Shown here in pieces: positions 610-21,192 of a stretch of 21,192 bases of DNA. Both the position numbers and the translations under genes were made by a program. The stretch covers positions 1 to 21,192 of the IMG/VR virus record IMGVR_UViG_3300028581_000286. One strand, given 5' to 3'. Within the stretch, counting starts at the first letter, position 1; every line of letters begins with the position of its first letter. The stretch comes from a virus. Below the pieces are notes generated by a model. It did no database searches and was not told the origin of the DNA. It saw only the letters and a list, made by a program, of their open reading frames with translations.

Positions 610-849
610 ATGAGCCTTTCAAATAACTTCCCGTCCATCAGACCAAGCCTACTCCTAGACTTTGCTAACACTGATGTTATCGGTACTATCTACAGACCTA
701 CTGAAGCAGTTGATGAAGAAGGTAATCCAGTTATGGAGGAGTTAACTGGGTATCATGTCAATATCCGAGCAGTAGCTGGTGAAGACACTACTGATATTGC
801 ACCATTCGCTGTAGTTCCTGCTAATCCTGTAAGAATCTGGGCTAGTTAA
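610..849 (+). CDS. Small tail-fibre-like protein
   Basis: A 79-residue protein. Residues 9-20 (SIRPSLLLDFAN) resemble the short segment that starts many phage fibre or tail proteins. The end, GYHVNIRAV followed by PANPVRIWAS, resembles a short phage tail protein whose C-terminus reads P-x-RVWA. AAGGT precedes the ATG at suitable spacing. Its last codons overlap by 8 bp the end of the convergent minus-strand gene at 842, with no terminator visible between them. A tail role is likely, but the exact function is unknown. Confidence 0.7.
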   Translation: MSLSNNFPSIRPSLLLDFANTDVIGTIYRPTEAVDEEGNPVMEELTGYHVNIRAVAGEDTTDIAPFAVVPANPVRIWAS

Positions 850-1276
850 CAAATAGTCTCTTTAAATGATTGCGGTGGATGCGTCCTCCAACGAACGAGT
901 TATAGTACTCATCAGGTTTTAACAATACGTTGTTGACAACCTGTTCTCTTAACTCGATGTAGGAGCATTCACCTTTTGAATAGCAATAGTGTAGTATCTC
1001 TCTCGTAAAGTTCTCACTACCAAGATCGATGACGTCCTGCTTCAACTCTTCATTGGATCCATAATAGGTCTTCCAATCTGAAGCAGTCTTGGACTTAATC
1101 TTTTTCTTCTTCTTCTCTCCGGATTTCAGAGTAACTGTTTTCGTCGAAGTACGGGAAAACTTGGCTAGCTTTTTGCCAATGTATTTATGTTGACTAGTCA
1201 GATTAACTATCAAATATACAAAACCCACACAATCTTCTGGTAATTCTTTTACCTCTTGTCCTTGATAAATCCACAT
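842..1276 (-). CDS. GIY-YIG-like nuclease (Seg/homing-type)
   Basis: Residues 17-36 hold GFVYLIVN...KYIGKK, which fits the Y-L-I and Y-I-G strands of a GIY-YIG nuclease core. A lysine-rich loop follows, then DWKTYYGSNEELKQDV and a C-terminal segment with YIELREQ, where the conserved glutamate of the fold could lie. The open frame extends to a GTG at 1285, but the ATG at 1276 (MWIYQGQEV) matches the usual start of this phage family, so I prefer it. The gene sits alone between the tail module and the nrd operon, a common site for free-standing homing-type genes. Whether it is an active endonuclease is unknown. Confidence 0.65.
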   Translation of the reverse strand: MWIYQGQEVKELPEDCVGFVYLIVNLTSQHKYIGKKLAKFSRTSTKTVTLKSGEKKKKKIKSKTASDWKTYYGSNEELKQDVIDLGSENFTREILHYCYSKGECSYIELREQVVNNVLLKPDEYYNSFVGGRIHRNHLKRLFVN

Positions 1277-1299
1277 AGTAAGCACCGAAAAGTTATAGT

Positions 1300-2863: not shown

Positions 2864-3964
2864 TTAAATTTTACAGGAATCGCAATCTTCTTCGTCATCA
2901 ATATTATCATCTTGAATATTATCACCATCTGAAGAAGACTCGCTTTTAACTTCACCAGCGCCATCATGTGTATTGTTGTAATAGAGTTGCTTGCCCCCGA
3001 ACTTATAGAAGGTGACAATATCACGAATAAGTTGAGACATTGGTACTTTTGATTCTTCAAAAAACTCTGGATTATATGAAGTGTTAACAGATATCCCTTG
3101 GTCAATATACTTTTGTAGAATAGCACAAATCTTTAGGTAACCATCCGGAGTCTTTTGATCCCATAATAGATCATATTGATTCTTGAGACGATGATAACCT
3201 GGAACAACCTGAGCACTCACACCATCTTTAGATTGCTTATAAGATACTAAAGCGCGAGGAGGTTCAATACCATTTGTACTATTCGAAATTTGCGCTGATG
3301 TTTCAGCAGGCATTAGCGCCATTAATGTTGAGTTACGAATACCAAACTCTTTAAGATCCTTGCGAAGTTGTTTCCAATCCATGCGTTCATTTGGTTTAAC
3401 TAACTCATCTACATCTCGCTTATATGTATCAATTGGCACAATTCCATGTCCATATTTTGTTTCCATTAACTTTGGAATAGCACCTTTTTCTTTTGCAAGA
3501 TCCACCGATGCTTTAATCAAGTAATATGACCACGCTTCAGCAAAGCGATCTACTTCAGCAAAGGCCGATTCATCATACTTTAAACCACGTTTAGCAAGGA
3601 AGTATGCAAGGTTAATAATACCTACACCAAGAGGCCGACGGTTCTTTGTACTTTGCTTTGCAGCAGGTACTGGATACCCTTGATAGTCAAGTAAGGCATC
3701 GAGAACTCGGACGGTGATTGAACAATATTTTTCAAAGTCGGAGGGTTCGTTAATGAGACCCCAGTTAATGGCCGACAAAGTACACAATGAGATTTCAGCT
3801 TCTTCATCATCTGCAGAATTTAAAGGTTTACAAGGAAGGTTAATCTCACAATTGTGAACTAATATTCCATTTGCATAAAAGTTTTCATTTTTATCAACAG
3901 TAATATCATATACGTCTTCACAATAATCTAGGTATTCAATTTTTAACATATTTTTTTCTTCCAT
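2864..3964 (-). CDS. nrdA: NrdA C-terminal piece with split-intein C-fragment
   Basis: A 366-residue fusion. Residues 1-38 are an intein C-fragment ending in block F (EDVYDITVDKNENFYANG) and block G (ILVHN). The C-extein starts at C39 (CEINLPCKPL) and covers the second part of NrdA. C61 (ISLCTLSA) corresponds to E. coli C462. NSTLMALMP and SNSTNGIEPPRA are conserved core motifs, and the tail ends DCDSCKI with the redox cysteine pair. C61 falls 23 residues after the radical cysteine in the spliced product, as in E. coli. Trans-splicing with the N-piece would give 764 residues (E. coli 761). The start could be M1 or M6 (position 3949); GGAAG is well placed for M6. Confidence 0.93.
   Translation of the reverse strand: MEEKNMLKIEYLDYCEDVYDITVDKNENFYANGILVHNCEINLPCKPLNSADDEEAEISLCTLSAINWGLINEPSDFEKYCSITVRVLDALLDYQGYPVPAAKQSTKNRRPLGVGIINLAYFLAKRGLKYDESAFAEVDRFAEAWSYYLIKASVDLAKEKGAIPKLMETKYGHGIVPIDTYKRDVDELVKPNERMDWKQLRKDLKEFGIRNSTLMALMPAETSAQISNSTNGIEPPRALVSYKQSKDGVSAQVVPGYHRLKNQYDLLWDQKTPDGYLKICAILQKYIDQGISVNTSYNPEFFEESKVPMSQLIRDIVTFYKFGGKQLYYNNTHDGAGEVKSESSSDGDNIQDDNIDDEEDCDSCKI
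3851..3964 (-). other. Split intein C-fragment of NrdA
   Basis: Residues 1-38 of the nrdA C-piece. Block F is visible around DITVDKNENFYANG and block G is ILVHN, followed by Cys+1. The terminal Asn38 and penultimate His37 are those needed for Asn cyclisation. The length is typical of C-fragments in canonically split inteins. Confidence 0.92.
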
Positions 3965-3965
3965 T

Positions 3966-4202
3966 TTACTTTATTTTACGCTTTCCTAAATTTGCTTTTC
4001 TTAAAAGTTCTCTATGTTCTGGACTACGAAAATGTGGCTTATATTCTAATCCTAATTCTTCTTTAAGAATATTAACAAAATTCATGTAATCACCATTAAA
4101 TCTCATTTTTGAAAACGATTTAGGAAAATATAATCCTATTTTTTTAGCTTCTTTAATCTCAGAACTATTTATAAAATGTGAAATTATATTACCTTTAATG
4201 CG
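3966..4202 (-). pseudogene. Decayed homing-endonuclease-like frame between the nrdA halves
   Basis: Between the two nrdA pieces a 78-codon frame is open without an obvious start. It follows a TGA at 4203-4205, overlaps the end of the IntN frame and stops 1 nt before the ATG of the C-piece. An internal ATG at 4106 would give 46 residues. The product is basic and protein-like (KEAKKIGLYFPKSFSKMRF, NFVNILKEELGLEY). Its end, HFRSPEHRELLRKANLGKRK, resembles the NUMOD3-type DNA-binding motif of phage homing endonucleases. I infer the 3' end of a lost endonuclease gene. It could instead be a short functional peptide. Confidence 0.5.
4166..4173 (-). promoter_or_regulatory. T4-type late promoter within the nrdA split
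   Basis: An exact TATAAATA on the minus strand, inside the gap between the nrdA pieces. It would give transcripts through the endonuclease-like remnant into the NrdA C-piece, nrdB and glutaredoxin. Free-standing homing endonuclease genes in T4 often have their own late promoter, so this may be inherited from the lost gene. The 8-bp motif can also occur by chance in AT-rich DNA. Confidence 0.5.
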
Positions 4203-5791
4203 TCAGTTTCAACAAGATCTTGCGCTTCAACATATCCACGATTCATGGTATATACCCTATGATCAGGAGTGCATACTATTGAATTCCCTTGATCATCAGT
4301 GATTCGCATTAATGTTGCGTTTTTACGAGTCATTGCTGAAGCTTTTACTTTTCTAAATTCGTCTTCGCCAGTTTTATTATTACGACTAAGTACTTTCATA
4401 TCTGTAGTAACATCTTTTAGCATTGCATCAGTAATTGAACCATCTCTTAATTCAACAGTAACAAATGTATCTCCCGTTAAACAACAGAGATTTGATTGAC
4501 GGATAGGTGCTACTTCAGGTATGAAAGAACCATGCTCATTTGCATGATCTACGTTCATTAGGTAAATTCTACCTGTATCTTTACGCTCAGTGATAAACAT
4601 TGAGAATACATCAATTGCAGGTAGACTTATCTTTCGGATAGTAGGATCTGCTTCATACATTTCATATAAGCGTTTAAACTCAGTTTGATTTGCATAGAAG
4701 TTTTCAAGCAATCCAGGAACATCGTTTGGAGAGAAGAGAGTAATATTACCTCCACTCAAAAGACGCTCATACATTGTTTTATTGAATTGAAACGCGTAGT
4801 CCATATGACGCACACGATTCTCTTCAGTACCTTTGTTATTCTTTAATACGATAAGACTTTCAAATTCTAAATGCCAGATTGGAATGTACACAGTAGCAGC
4901 ACCTCCGCGTACACCACCTTGACTACAAGATTTTACAGCAGCCTGAAAATACTTAAGAAAAGGAATAAGGCCAGTGTGAACGACGCTGCCGTCACCAATC
5001 CGAGAACCAAGAGCCCGGATAGCCCCGACTGCAATGCCGATGCCAGCCTTTTTAGAAATGTATCGCACCACTGAGGTAACGGTAGCGTTAATTGAATCCA
5101 ACGAATCGCCAGACTCAATGAGGACACAACTAGAAAACTGGCGCGTAGGGGTACGGACACCAGCCATAATAGGGGTTGGGAGAGAAACATAAAAGAGCGA
5201 GATAGCATCGTAGAATTCTTTAACATACTTTAATCGAGTTTCTTTTGGATATGATGAGAAGAGTGTAGCTGCAATCATGATATAAAGAACTTGAGGAGTC
5301 TCATAAGGCATCTTAGTCAAACGATCTTGAACTAAGTACTTACTACGAAGTTGCTCCATTCCAACATAAGTAAAGGTATCATCCCTCTCGTGTTTAATGT
5401 AGTTATTTAAACTAACGAATTCTTCTTCAGTATAGAGATCAAGAATTTCTGCATCATATACACCAGCTTTTACATTATGACGAACAATGTCAAGAAGAGG
5501 CCAGGGGTGATATGAACCATATACTTCTTTACGAAGTTTATAGTTAATAAGACGTGCTGCAACGTATTGATAGTTAGGAGTATATTCGGAGATTAACTCT
5601 GCTGATGATTTAATGAGTAGTTCATGAATATCATAGGCTTTAATGTTATTATATAGTTGTATGTTAGCTTTTAATTCAATTTCAGATATGGATACACCGG
5701 TAATTCCATCAGTTGCCCAATACAATACTTTATGCAACTTTTCAAGGTCAAACGCTTCGGTTTTTCCATTACGCTTTACAACATTAATCAT
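4184..5791 (-). CDS. nrdA: NrdA N-terminal piece with split-intein N-fragment
   Basis: A 535-residue fusion. Residues 1-436 are the N-extein: an ATP-cone-like start (MINVVKRNGKTEAFDLEKLH), then the ten-stranded barrel with C222 (TRQFSSCVLIE, E. coli C225), and finally QSNLC with C436, the thiyl-radical cysteine (E. coli C439). The intein starts at C437 (CLTGDTFVTV). It has block B at GNSIVCTPDHRVYT and ends after VETDALKVI at a TAA. Spliced to the C-piece it restores SNLC-CEINLP, the counterpart of E. coli SNLC-LEIALP. A sigma70-like promoter and GGAG lie upstream. By itself the N-piece lacks C462, the redox tail and much of the active site, so it should be inactive until spliced. Confidence 0.94.
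   Translation of the reverse strand: MINVVKRNGKTEAFDLEKLHKVLYWATDGITGVSISEIELKANIQLYNNIKAYDIHELLIKSSAELISEYTPNYQYVAARLINYKLRKEVYGSYHPWPLLDIVRHNVKAGVYDAEILDLYTEEEFVSLNNYIKHERDDTFTYVGMEQLRSKYLVQDRLTKMPYETPQVLYIMIAATLFSSYPKETRLKYVKEFYDAISLFYVSLPTPIMAGVRTPTRQFSSCVLIESGDSLDSINATVTSVVRYISKKAGIGIAVGAIRALGSRIGDGSVVHTGLIPFLKYFQAAVKSCSQGGVRGGAATVYIPIWHLEFESLIVLKNNKGTEENRVRHMDYAFQFNKTMYERLLSGGNITLFSPNDVPGLLENFYANQTEFKRLYEMYEADPTIRKISLPAIDVFSMFITERKDTGRIYLMNVDHANEHGSFIPEVAPIRQSNLCCLTGDTFVTVELRDGSITDAMLKDVTTDMKVLSRNNKTGEDEFRKVKASAMTRKNATLMRITDDQGNSIVCTPDHRVYTMNRGYVEAQDLVETDALKVI
4187..4483 (-). other. Split intein N-fragment of NrdA
   Basis: Ninety-nine residues (437-535 of the piece), beginning with nucleophile Cys1 in block A (CLTGDTFVTV). 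Block B has the conserved T-x-x-H (CTPDHRVYT), followed by NRGYVEAQDL. From memory it resembles the published metagenomic NrdA-2 split intein. The codons TGT TGT at 4481-4486 encode the radical cysteine (extein -1) and intein Cys1. Confidence 0.92.
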
Positions 5792-19400: not shown

Positions 19401-19831
19401 TACATTTTAATCCCTGAAAAGTCCTGGCGTTCAGCTTTCATACGTCTACCAGAATCTGATTGGTCAAACAAAGGTGTGTCTTGAACTAATGTCTGTGCTG
19501 ATTGCTCAACATCATATAACTTCATTCGACTACGATCAACACCAATTACAAATCTCTTATACGTTGTAGGATCGTTATAACGATTCTTTAATTGTTTCAC
19601 CATGATTTGACCTAGTTTTTCTAAGTCTTCAGTTGATACAAGTGCAATCATTAAATCGGCAGTTGCAGGAAGACCAAAACTTTCACTCGTATCTTCCATT
19701 CCTACGTCGGTGTTTGAGTTGTGTGTGAGGATGTCATTGGCAAAAAACAAATGATTTCCGCTTACTTCAATATCTATTAAGTTGCGGGTTTCTTCAATAT
19801 CTTCTATTTCAACTATTTCATCATAATGCAT
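19400..19831 (-). CDS. 41: gp41 helicase C-terminal piece with split-intein C-fragment
   Basis: A 143-residue fusion. Residues 1-38 are the intein C-fragment (IDIEVSGNHLFFANDILTHN at its end), nearly the published gp41-1 C-fragment as I recall it, with Ser39 as +1. The extein (39-143) covers the last part of a T4 gp41-type DnaB helicase: SFGLPATADLMIALVSTEDL and QLKNRYNDPTTYKRFVIGVD. It starts 38 nt after the stop of the middle piece, with GGAG upstream. It must be joined to the middle piece to complete the helicase that unwinds DNA at the replication fork. Confidence 0.93.
   Translation of the reverse strand: MHYDEIVEIEDIEETRNLIDIEVSGNHLFFANDILTHNSNTDVGMEDTSESFGLPATADLMIALVSTEDLEKLGQIMVKQLKNRYNDPTTYKRFVIGVDRSRMKLYDVEQSAQTLVQDTPLFDQSDSGRRMKAERQDFSGIKM
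19718..19831 (-). other. Split intein C-fragment, second gp41 intein
   Basis: Thirty-eight residues with block F (LIDIEVSGNHLFFAND) and block G (ILTHN), then Ser+1. His37 and Asn38 are present. Confidence 0.93.
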
Positions 19832-19869: not shown

Positions 19870-21021
19870 TCATTTCTGCGCATATATGTCATTATACTTT
19901 ACAATTAATTTATCTCCTACCTTTAACCCAAAATTAATAGACTTTTCATGTCCTTCATATGTTGGGAATAGATGGTCTGATGAACAATATATAACTTTAC
20001 CAGATTTAGTTTTAATCCTATAAGTTTTTTTATACTGAACCGGAAACACCGTTTCAACTGTATTCCAACCATTGCTAGAAAGAATTTCATCACCAACTAA
20101 AACATCTTTTAAGAATTTGTTGCCTTCCTTTCCAATAACCTCAGTAAAAGGATCTAAACAAAAACCAGATCTTGTAGTTTGTGTTGCACTTACAATAGGT
20201 ACATTAAACTCAACTGCAAGACCACGAATTTCCTCGGCAATAGATTTAATATATGTATAGGAATTAATAGATCCTCCCATACCTTTCATACGAGAAGATG
20301 AACAGATGTTTAAGTAATCGATAAAGATAACATCCGGAGCAAAGTTCTTCTTCAATTTCAACTCATTTAAGAGTGCTCGAAAGTGACCAACGTGAGCAGC
20401 ACCAGTTGGATACTCTTTAATAATTAACTTACCAATGTTCTTTGCAGCAATCTTTGCAATCTTTGTTTCATACATATCTTTTGAAAGATTTTCCAATTGG
20501 TCTACTGGCAAGTTCATTAGGTTAGCATCAATACGTTCTGCAATTCTTTCCTCGGCCATTTCCATTGTGATATAGAGAACGTTCTTTCCTTGAGTTAAAG
20601 ATGCTGCACCACAATGACACATGAAGAGTGATTTACCAACACCAGTGTTGTGAGAAGAAATTCCATTTGTATAATATCTATGATTTTCATGCTCAACGTT
20701 TATATCAACGATAGGAATAGATTTTCCAGTAGTAATTACTTCACCTTTTTTATATCCTGTTTTTGTTAGGATATTAATTAGACCACGCCCAACTAACTGA
20801 CTAGCAGAAATCCATCCTATGTTTGTTTCAAACAAATGATCTGCATTACAGGAAACAGTTTCAAGTGTGTTTTCCATTTGAAGCACATGCTCATCATATA
20901 TACCTTTATTAATAAAATAATTAACAGGAACGTATCCATCTGGAGAATCAACTTCAACTTCATAACCATTTTCTAATAGCGTTTGTATTTCGGCAATAGG
21001 TATTTCTTTTTCATTCCACAT
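19870..21021 (-). CDS. 41: gp41 helicase middle piece flanked by two split-intein fragments
   Basis: A 383-residue three-part protein. Residues 1-125 are a large intein C-fragment (block B SCNADHLFE, block F IPIVDINVEHENHRYYTNG, block G ISSHN). Residues 126-287 are helicase: Walker A T126-G-V-G-K130-S131, KNVLYITMEMAEE, Walker B with D235 (VIFIDYLNI), ending ATQTTRSGF. Residues 288-383 are the N-fragment of a second intein (CLDPFTEVIG; block B CSSDHLFPTY). The helicase part resembles T4 gp41 closely (GKSL, CHC, TMEMAEE, LLNELKLKKNF). The gp41 N-terminal piece and its intein N-fragment must lie beyond 21192. AAGGA precedes the ATG, and the gene has its own promoter. Confidence 0.94.
   Translation of the reverse strand: MWNEKEIPIAEIQTLLENGYEVEVDSPDGYVPVNYFINKGIYDEHVLQMENTLETVSCNADHLFETNIGWISASQLVGRGLINILTKTGYKKGEVITTGKSIPIVDINVEHENHRYYTNGISSHNTGVGKSLFMCHCGAASLTQGKNVLYITMEMAEERIAERIDANLMNLPVDQLENLSKDMYETKIAKIAAKNIGKLIIKEYPTGAAHVGHFRALLNELKLKKNFAPDVIFIDYLNICSSSRMKGMGGSINSYTYIKSIAEEIRGLAVEFNVPIVSATQTTRSGFCLDPFTEVIGKEGNKFLKDVLVGDEILSSNGWNTVETVFPVQYKKTYRIKTKSGKVIYCSSDHLFPTYEGHEKSINFGLKVGDKLIVKYNDIYAQK
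19873..20160 (-). other. Split intein N-fragment, second gp41 intein
   Basis: Ninety-six residues from Cys1 (CLDPFTEVIG) through block B (CSSDHLFPTYEG) to LKVGDKLIVKYNDIYAQK. It pairs with the C-fragment encoded 38 nt downstream. It is similar in layout to the metagenomic gp41-1 split intein. Confidence 0.93.
20647..21021 (-). other. Large split intein C-fragment at the gp41 P-loop
   Basis: One hundred and twenty-five residues containing blocks B, F and G but lacking the Cys1 block A. The split is therefore close to the intein N-terminus, an atypical site like that of the AceL-TerL and VidaL metagenomic inteins. Thr126 is the +1 residue and is also part of the helicase Walker A. Confidence 0.88.
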
Positions 21022-21036
21022 TAAAACATCCTTTTG

Positions 21037-21044
21037 TATAAATA
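21037..21044 (+). promoter_or_regulatory. T4-type late promoter for the endonuclease-like gene
   Basis: Exact TATAAATA on the plus strand, 71 nt upstream of the ATG at 21116, in a non-coding divergent gap. Confidence 0.5.
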
Positions 21045-21049
21045 TAATT

Positions 21050-21080
21050 GTTGATCGCGGATCGCCACAATCCCATCAAC
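21050..21080. repeat. Imperfect hairpin in the divergent gap
   Basis: GTTGAT/ATCAAC outer stem and GGAT/ATCC inner stem around a 7-nt loop. It lies in the predicted leaders of both divergent transcripts: downstream of the late promoter on the plus strand and of the sigma70-like promoter on the minus strand. Role unknown. Confidence 0.45.
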
Positions 21081-21087
21081 TCTATCC

Positions 21088-21116
21088 ATTATAACATAAC
21101 TTTTGGAGAAAGTAAA
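21088..21116 (-). promoter_or_regulatory. Sigma70-like promoter for the gp41 middle piece
   Basis: -35 TTTACT (21111-21116), 17-bp spacer, -10 TATAAT (21088-21093). The -35 touches the first base of the divergent endonuclease-like ATG. It would let the helicase middle piece be expressed independently of gp41-N. Confidence 0.6.
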
Positions 21117-21192
21117 TGGACAGCATTACTATTTATTCTAATCTTTGCAAATCACATAAGTACTTAAAAGAATCTTATGGTCCTGGCTCAGG
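21116..21192 (+). CDS. Probable HNH homing endonuclease, N-terminal end (partial)
   Basis: The start of a frame cut by the window end: 25 complete codons, MDSITIYSNLCKSHKYL followed by KESYGPGS. GGAG lies 8 nt before the ATG. The pattern N-L-C-x-S-x-K-Y-L-K...G-x-G is how many phage HNH endonucleases begin, just before their HH-I-x-P catalytic segment, which would lie outside the window. It is on the opposite strand to gp41, exactly where gp41 is split at its P-loop, the usual place for an endonuclease linked to a split intein. Confidence 0.6.
   Translation, partial: MDSITIYSNLCKSHKYLKESYGPGS

Follow-up and report, generated by a model that had tools for sequence, protein, structure and literature searches.

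A VidaL-type intein C-fragment in the Walker A motif of a phage gp41-type helicase predicted to be spliced from three chains

The right end of the viral record IMGVR_UViG_3300028581_000286 raises the question of how a replicative helicase could be completed when its reading frame begins with an intein fragment and enters the nucleotide-binding loop only at the third residue of the Walker A motif. The window, the whole stretch of DNA analyzed here, is the entire 21,192-bp IMG/VR fragment, which stops inside an HNH endonuclease gene at position 21192. The element in question (20647–21021, minus strand) is very probably the C-terminal fragment (IntC) of a VidaL-type, N-terminally split class 1 intein (Cys1, C-terminal Asn, Thr+1), located in the Walker A motif, or P-loop, of a T4 gp41-type replicative helicase, and the same high confidence extends to the full explanation, in which the helicase would be assembled from three chains and the split would have originated in the insertion of an endonuclease gene.

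The IntC forms the first 125 residues of an open reading frame (ORF) at 19870–21021 (minus strand), which reads MWNEKEIPIAEIQ...VDINVEHENHRYYTNGISSHN and is followed directly by TGVGKSLFMCH. It starts with its own methionine (ATG at 21021) and retains everything that follows beta-strand 2, as in VidaL. Of the marks of a class 1 intein, those that belong to the C-terminal fragment are present, namely block B with its histidine (CNADHLFET, residues 59–66), block F (VDINVEHENHRYY, residues 105–117), and block G with the terminal His-Asn and a +1 nucleophile (NGISSHN/T, residues 119–125, where the slash marks the junction and +1 is Thr). The residues His62 of block B, Asp106, Asn113, Arg115, His124, and Asn125 are invariant in 18 relatives. 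VidaL (6vgv) is the best sequence match in the PDB (phmmer, E=7.8e-13, residues 3–127), and also the top structural match of the AlphaFold model, which has a mean pLDDT (predicted local distance difference test) of 85. The IntC alone is recognized by no model in Pfam, PHROGs, or NCBIfam, so automatic annotation would overlook the fragment. A preliminary description of the sequence had assigned blocks B, F, and G to a 125-residue C-fragment at 20647–21021, and this assignment is borne out by the ORF reading, a VidaL match well beyond what chance would give, and 253 homologues.

The segment that follows the intein is recognizable as helicase (Pfam DnaB_C at residues 126–285, E=5.3e-14; PHROG DnaB-like helicase, E=1.1e-53). 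This gp41-type middle segment of 162 residues (20161–20646, minus strand) starts with TGVGKS, that is, with Walker A from its third residue, and contains IDYLN in the Walker B region. In 62 inteinless helicases, the sequence runs ...LNIALAGTGVGKSLFMCH, in which LAG/TGVGKS, the end of the N-extein and the start of the C-extein, is uninterrupted. The break therefore falls inside Walker A, between its residues 2 and 3 (A-G/T-G-V-G-K-S), and the nucleotide-binding loop is absent before splicing, when the protein would presumably be unable to bind ATP. Given the insertion site, completion of the P-loop is predicted to depend on splicing, as the preliminary description had proposed in naming both the Thr+1 and the P-loop position. 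A basic N-terminal fragment (IntN, net charge +2 to +7) would pair with the acidic IntC (net charge −7 to −15), and trans-splicing would then join LAG to TGVGKS, completing and activating the loop.

The same helicase gene is broken a second time, by a split intein that the preliminary description did not mention. This is a canonically split intein of the gp41-1 type, with an IntN of 96 residues (19873–20160, minus strand; Cys1, CLDPFTEV...; TIGR01445) and an IntC of 38 residues (19718–19831, minus strand; ...ANDILTHN/SNTD), beyond which lies the C-terminal helicase segment of 105 residues (19403–19717, minus strand). When its IntN and IntC are read as one, they match gp41-1 (6qaz) with E=9.9e-30. 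Three chains would thus be expected, the first comprising the N-domain with a short IntN, the second the P-loop IntC, the middle segment, and the canonical IntN, and the third the canonical IntC with the C-terminus. The middle piece would splice at both ends, so that two unrelated split inteins would assemble one helicase. In one relative, L122 (L numbers denote the viral-contig loci of relatives compared with the window), all the genes of a three-piece helicase are found on a single contig, with a first IntN of 15 residues; its second intein occupies another site. L136, L164, and L165 also have both splits. The second intein has the gp41-1 sequence type (CLDLKTQVQTPQG...) in two of these, L136 and L164, and in them, as in L139, it is gp41-1 itself.

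The partner of the P-loop IntC cannot be read in the record, because the record stops inside the endonuclease gene. Its likely form is given by the relatives, in which more than 40 distinct N-fragments of gp41 helicases read ...AG/C[VI]HPxT and terminate at a stop codon after a short basic tail; the typical junction is ...LAG/CVHPxTKVxIRxRK. The IntN in these sequences has 14–21 residues, mostly 16 or 17, and Cys1 stands at the N-terminal junction in every N-fragment that was read. No distinct N-fragment at the P-loop site has a full intein N-domain, the maximum being 21 intein residues. A 14-residue IntN (CVHPDTLITVRVKK; CVHPETKVKIRFRK) occurs in L010 (1250–1924), L011/L013, and L175, and one of 15 residues (CVHPSTKIKVRIRKV) in L122 (3111–3758); these are at or below the length of the shortest natural IntN characterized. 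The window's own partner is thus likely to be a helicase N-domain ending in ...LAG/CVHPxTKVxIRxRKK, with an IntN of about 14–21 residues, just off the contig behind the HNH endonuclease. The short, Cys1-containing N-partner that the preliminary description had predicted is therefore present in the relatives, none of which carries the full-length N-domain that would have contradicted it, and the window's own copy lies off the contig. Among the matches to the N-fragment pattern, those in L005 and L006 (CLPNTT...) and in L039 were false and were dropped, and the true IntN of L005 was located separately. Locus L002 was set aside as a possible assembly error, given that TKGGLPNKTLNIALAG is repeated in tandem before Cys1 and the C-terminal ORF is broken.

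The commonest gene order in the relatives is the N-fragment, an endonuclease gene on the opposite strand, and the IntC-helicase gene (L004, L005, L007, L012, L126, and others). In the window, a divergent homing endonuclease of the HNH type adjoins the IntC and is cut by the end of the record after its first 26 residues (21116–21192, plus strand; 77 bases), of which 17 (65%) are identical to the complete endonuclease of L007, where the full order of N-fragment, endonuclease, and IntC is found and the endonuclease matches the PHROG homing endonuclease family (E=7.7e-20). The arrangement is that of a fractured gene, with the endonuclease beside the IntC in the window and the complete order in the relatives. 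Endonucleases of this type are nearly confined to the break in the gp41 P-loop intein, and lie between its halves in 16 of 17 relatives. Additional plus-strand genes that do not resemble endonucleases (e.g., MDAQELRNLQEAYLEVV...) are found in the break, beside the endonuclease or in its place, in L136, L137, L140, L147, L149, L159, L163, L175, L177, and L197.

A minority of the alleles are not split. At 109 readable loci, some of which are overlapping copies of one contig, the intein is split in 102 and contiguous in seven (L027, L139, L143, L144, L145, L146, and L156); the contiguous form reads CVHPETKVKIRFRKISWWIEKETTIAEIKTLL... in the L139 group and CVHPDTKVKIRFKKKMIWTEKEVNISEIK... in L027. 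Identity between the split L126 and the contiguous L139 is 96.0% on one side of the break and 96.7% on the other, and the two DNAs part only where the endonuclease is inserted (...AGATTTAGGAAG / ... / TGGATTGAAAAAGAAAC), an insert present in L126 alone. They form an allelic pair, one member with the endonuclease and the other lacking it. The most likely origin of the split is that an endonuclease gene entered a contiguous mini-intein near codon 15, after which the intein and its endonuclease would have spread together by homing. This direction is preferred because the contiguous forms occur in separate lineages.

Lateral transfer is apparent in pairs of relatives whose inteins are far more alike than the exteins that surround them. 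Between L139 and L160, for example, only five of 372 intein sites differ (synonymous divergence, dS, of 0.04), as against 96 of the next 450 helicase bases (dS 0.80), and the intein and extein dS are 0.08 and 0.78 in L010–L011, and 0.34 and 2.86 in L128–L153. At the edge of the intein the identity drops steeply, although it stays raised for a short way into the C-extein, the pattern left by homing with short co-conversion. This signature is found within the family, the window itself being without a close relative. The ratio of nonsynonymous to synonymous divergence (dN/dS) of the intein is 0.06–0.32, which shows purifying selection, and its fold is therefore maintained.

Several points weigh against this explanation. 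The splicing is a prediction from sequence; the N-fragment of the window was not found in a search of its own record, nor was any contig overlapping the right end of the window found by exact search of the viral contigs; the match of the AlphaFold model to VidaL is moderate (TM-score of about 0.55), as is expected of a fragment without the N-terminal strands; in two relatives, L131 and L165, the halves of the split intein have no endonuclease between them; and the tree does not distinguish an ancestral from a re-fused state of the contiguous alleles.

The last two points bear on the origin of the split alone, which might be the reverse of that proposed, with contiguous alleles produced by re-fusion after the precise loss of the endonuclease, and the split itself arising in another way, such as through a frameshift or stop later filled by an endonuclease. 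This possibility is somewhat unlikely. The contiguous L027 does fall inside the split group of the tree, with weak support, the break is occupied by three or more kinds of nuclease or inserted gene, and some split loci (L131 at 64–180, L165/L169 around 3834–4010) contain no endonuclease. However, contiguous forms are found in two lineages, L027 and the L139 group, and also in the UvsX gene of Salicola phage SCTP-2, and L165 and L169 retain the promoter, the hairpin, and the late-promoter-like octamer TATAAATA that usually accompany the endonuclease, which looks like loss of the endonuclease after the split.

A second alternative, which is very improbable, is that the P-loop intein is decaying and has lost the ability to splice, and that the phage obtains its helicase from another gene. 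Splicing is, after all, a prediction, the phage is known only from a 21-kb fragment, and block F is variant in one relative, the IntC of L122 (1243–2421, minus strand), which has HKNKRYY for HENHRYY and so differs at an otherwise nearly invariant histidine. Decay would be hard to reconcile, however, with the invariance of the catalytic residues in the 18 relatives, with the low dN/dS of both intein and extein, and with gene fragments that are still open in more than 100 loci. Least credible of all is a canonical partner of about 100 residues, with a C-fragment that overlaps it or bears an unrelated N-terminal extension, which could appeal to the canonical split of the second intein in the same gene and to the position of the window's own N-fragment beyond the record, but not to the relatives' N-fragments, with their 21 intein residues at most, nor to an IntC that aligns with that of VidaL from residue 3, nor to contiguous alleles in which IntN and IntC make up one mini-intein of 141–142 residues with nothing left over.

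The preferred reading, a VidaL-type intein fractured at an endonuclease gene, can be set beside the closest systems known. The atypically split inteins listed in the literature are VidaL, AceL-TerL, GOS-TerL, and PolB16, with the split site of VidaL after beta-strand 2 (S1), and the 15-residue IntN of PolB16 is described as record-short (PMC13014065). The preliminary description had cited AceL-TerL and VidaL as the known cases, to which GOS-TerL and PolB16 OarG must be added, and had considered N-terminally split inteins to be rare, which does not hold for this phage group, given its 253 relatives. The two terminase inteins and PolB16 OarG have a short natural IntN (15–37 residues as a group), like the relatives of the window, and a long IntC, like the window itself, but the former are split after the first helix (S2), and the latter has Ser1 and Ser+1 in a polymerase host.

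VidaL (6vgv, 6vgw; 16-residue IntN) is homologous over the whole IntC and has the same split site, the Cys1 found in the relatives of the window, and an interrupted Walker A, although identity is about 30% and the gp41 group forms a separate, well-supported branch (100/99 in the tree). The native VidaL genes, located in viral contigs, encode a UvsX-like recombinase with the junctions GESG/CLPKEAVVQIRLTKKG (16 residues) and HN/SGKS; VidaL therefore also breaks a P-loop, and in L023 an endonuclease gene sits between its halves, as in the window's family. The site and the nucleophile differ, with Ser+1 in VidaL (GESG/SGKS) and Thr+1 in the helicase (LAG/TGVGKS), two residues earlier in the loop. 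One of the first VidaL-type inteins was reportedly named for a T4-like helicase, a lead to a possible earlier gp41 member. The intein gp41-1 shares the host gene and typifies the second intein of the window helicase, but is canonically split (IntN of 88–96 residues, IntC of 38) at a site about 160 residues downstream, and the P-loop IntC, which matches it only weakly (E=0.0098) and at another site, does not belong to its type. The Salicola phage SCTP-2 UvsX intein is an unsplit relative of VidaL at the identical UvsX P-loop site, although it is a cis-splicing form in a recombinase, with no endonuclease. The same SCTP-2 gene (L021, 2204–4210) contains a second contiguous intein further on (SGG/CLVADTD...VVSHN/SGQ). 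In a PhoH-like ATPase of an uncultured, unannotated large phage (L022, 626–3897; LR756500.1), the Walker A intein is likewise N-terminally split (GKAG/CLYPDEKIKIYK... and HN/TGKT), with an IntN of 26 residues and a nuclease-like gene between the halves.

The 253 relatives recovered by the IntC profile are all in viral contigs, and none was found by profile search in bacterial or archaeal genomes. In isolated phages, the relatives are all distant (<60% identity) and lie in UvsX, PhoH-like, and TerL genes.

The DNA between the endonuclease and IntC genes carries a conserved set of putative control elements. A sigma-70-like promoter (TTTACT-17-TATAAT; 21088–21116, minus strand) points toward the IntC gene, with about one such site expected in shuffles of the stretch; similar sites are found in L007 and L165. 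Facing the endonuclease gene is a T4-type late-promoter-like octamer (21037–21044, plus strand), which is identical at the equivalent place in L004, L005, L007, and L012. Between them lies a conserved hairpin with strong covariation (21050–21080, minus strand), preceded by [AT]TAGAG and built of a 6-bp stem, a bulged G-Y pair, a 4-bp stem, and a loop of 6–7 nucleotides, which is also found in L004 (3048–3078), L005 (5937–5967), L007 (5922–5951), L109, L114, L118, L120, L165, and others. In 13 distinct loci, 99.3% of the paired cells are standard and nine of 11 pairs change on both sides, with a covariation score of 0.83, against 0.28 in shuffles. No Rfam family corresponds to the hairpin, and a match to PYLIS_6 was due to chance. 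Read toward the IntC, the central pair is G-C, G-U, or A-U, and the five cases of G-U would become A-C mismatches if read the opposite way, which favors action in the helicase messenger RNA (mRNA), whereas the sigma-70-like promoters between hairpin and IntC in L115, L118, and L121, and the hairpin before a free-standing endonuclease in L120, favor action in the endonuclease mRNA. The hairpin also occurs beside a GIY-YIG gene in L111/L112.

Elsewhere in the window, a canonical split intein likewise divides the large subunit of ribonucleotide reductase between two genes (2864–3964 and 4184–5791, minus strand) separated by a stop-filled gap of 219 bp, with an IntN of about 98 residues (CLTGDTFV...) and an IntC ending in ...GILVHN/CEIN; counting the two in the helicase, the 21 kb thus hold three split inteins. 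A gene for a SegE-type GIY-YIG endonuclease lies at 842–1285 (minus strand; Pfam SegE_GIY-YIG, E=2.4e-32). Fragments of UvsX-type recombinases that start with pieces of canonical IntC occur in L009 (3858–4460) and L114 (4110–4679), and these phages seem to be rich in split inteins.

The element is of the VidaL kind at a new site, within a common phage family rather than as a rarity, and while the kind was already known, this member and its double-fracture context appear to be new; a search that did not extend to the original VidaL and fractured-gene reports turned up no published account of a natural three-piece protein assembled by two unrelated split inteins. On balance, it seems probable that this helicase can be produced only from three polypeptides, through two unrelated inteins whose splits lie at opposite ends, with one intein in the P-loop, and that the near-identical contiguous and split alleles in circulation allow the birth of a split intein to be observed directly.

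Protein semisynthesis calls for very short IntN peptides, and the P-loop family offers dozens of natural pairs, including IntNs of 14 and 15 residues (L010, L175, and L122), compared with the 15 of PolB16. The three-piece helicases represent natural cases of two split inteins that lie side by side and must not cross-react, while the allele pairs that differ in the presence of the endonuclease render the origin of split inteins testable, with a single intein in its cis and trans forms. The interest of the system thus lies in these paired split and unsplit alleles, and in the double breakage of one essential replication enzyme, the ATP site of which is predicted to be absent until splicing occurs.
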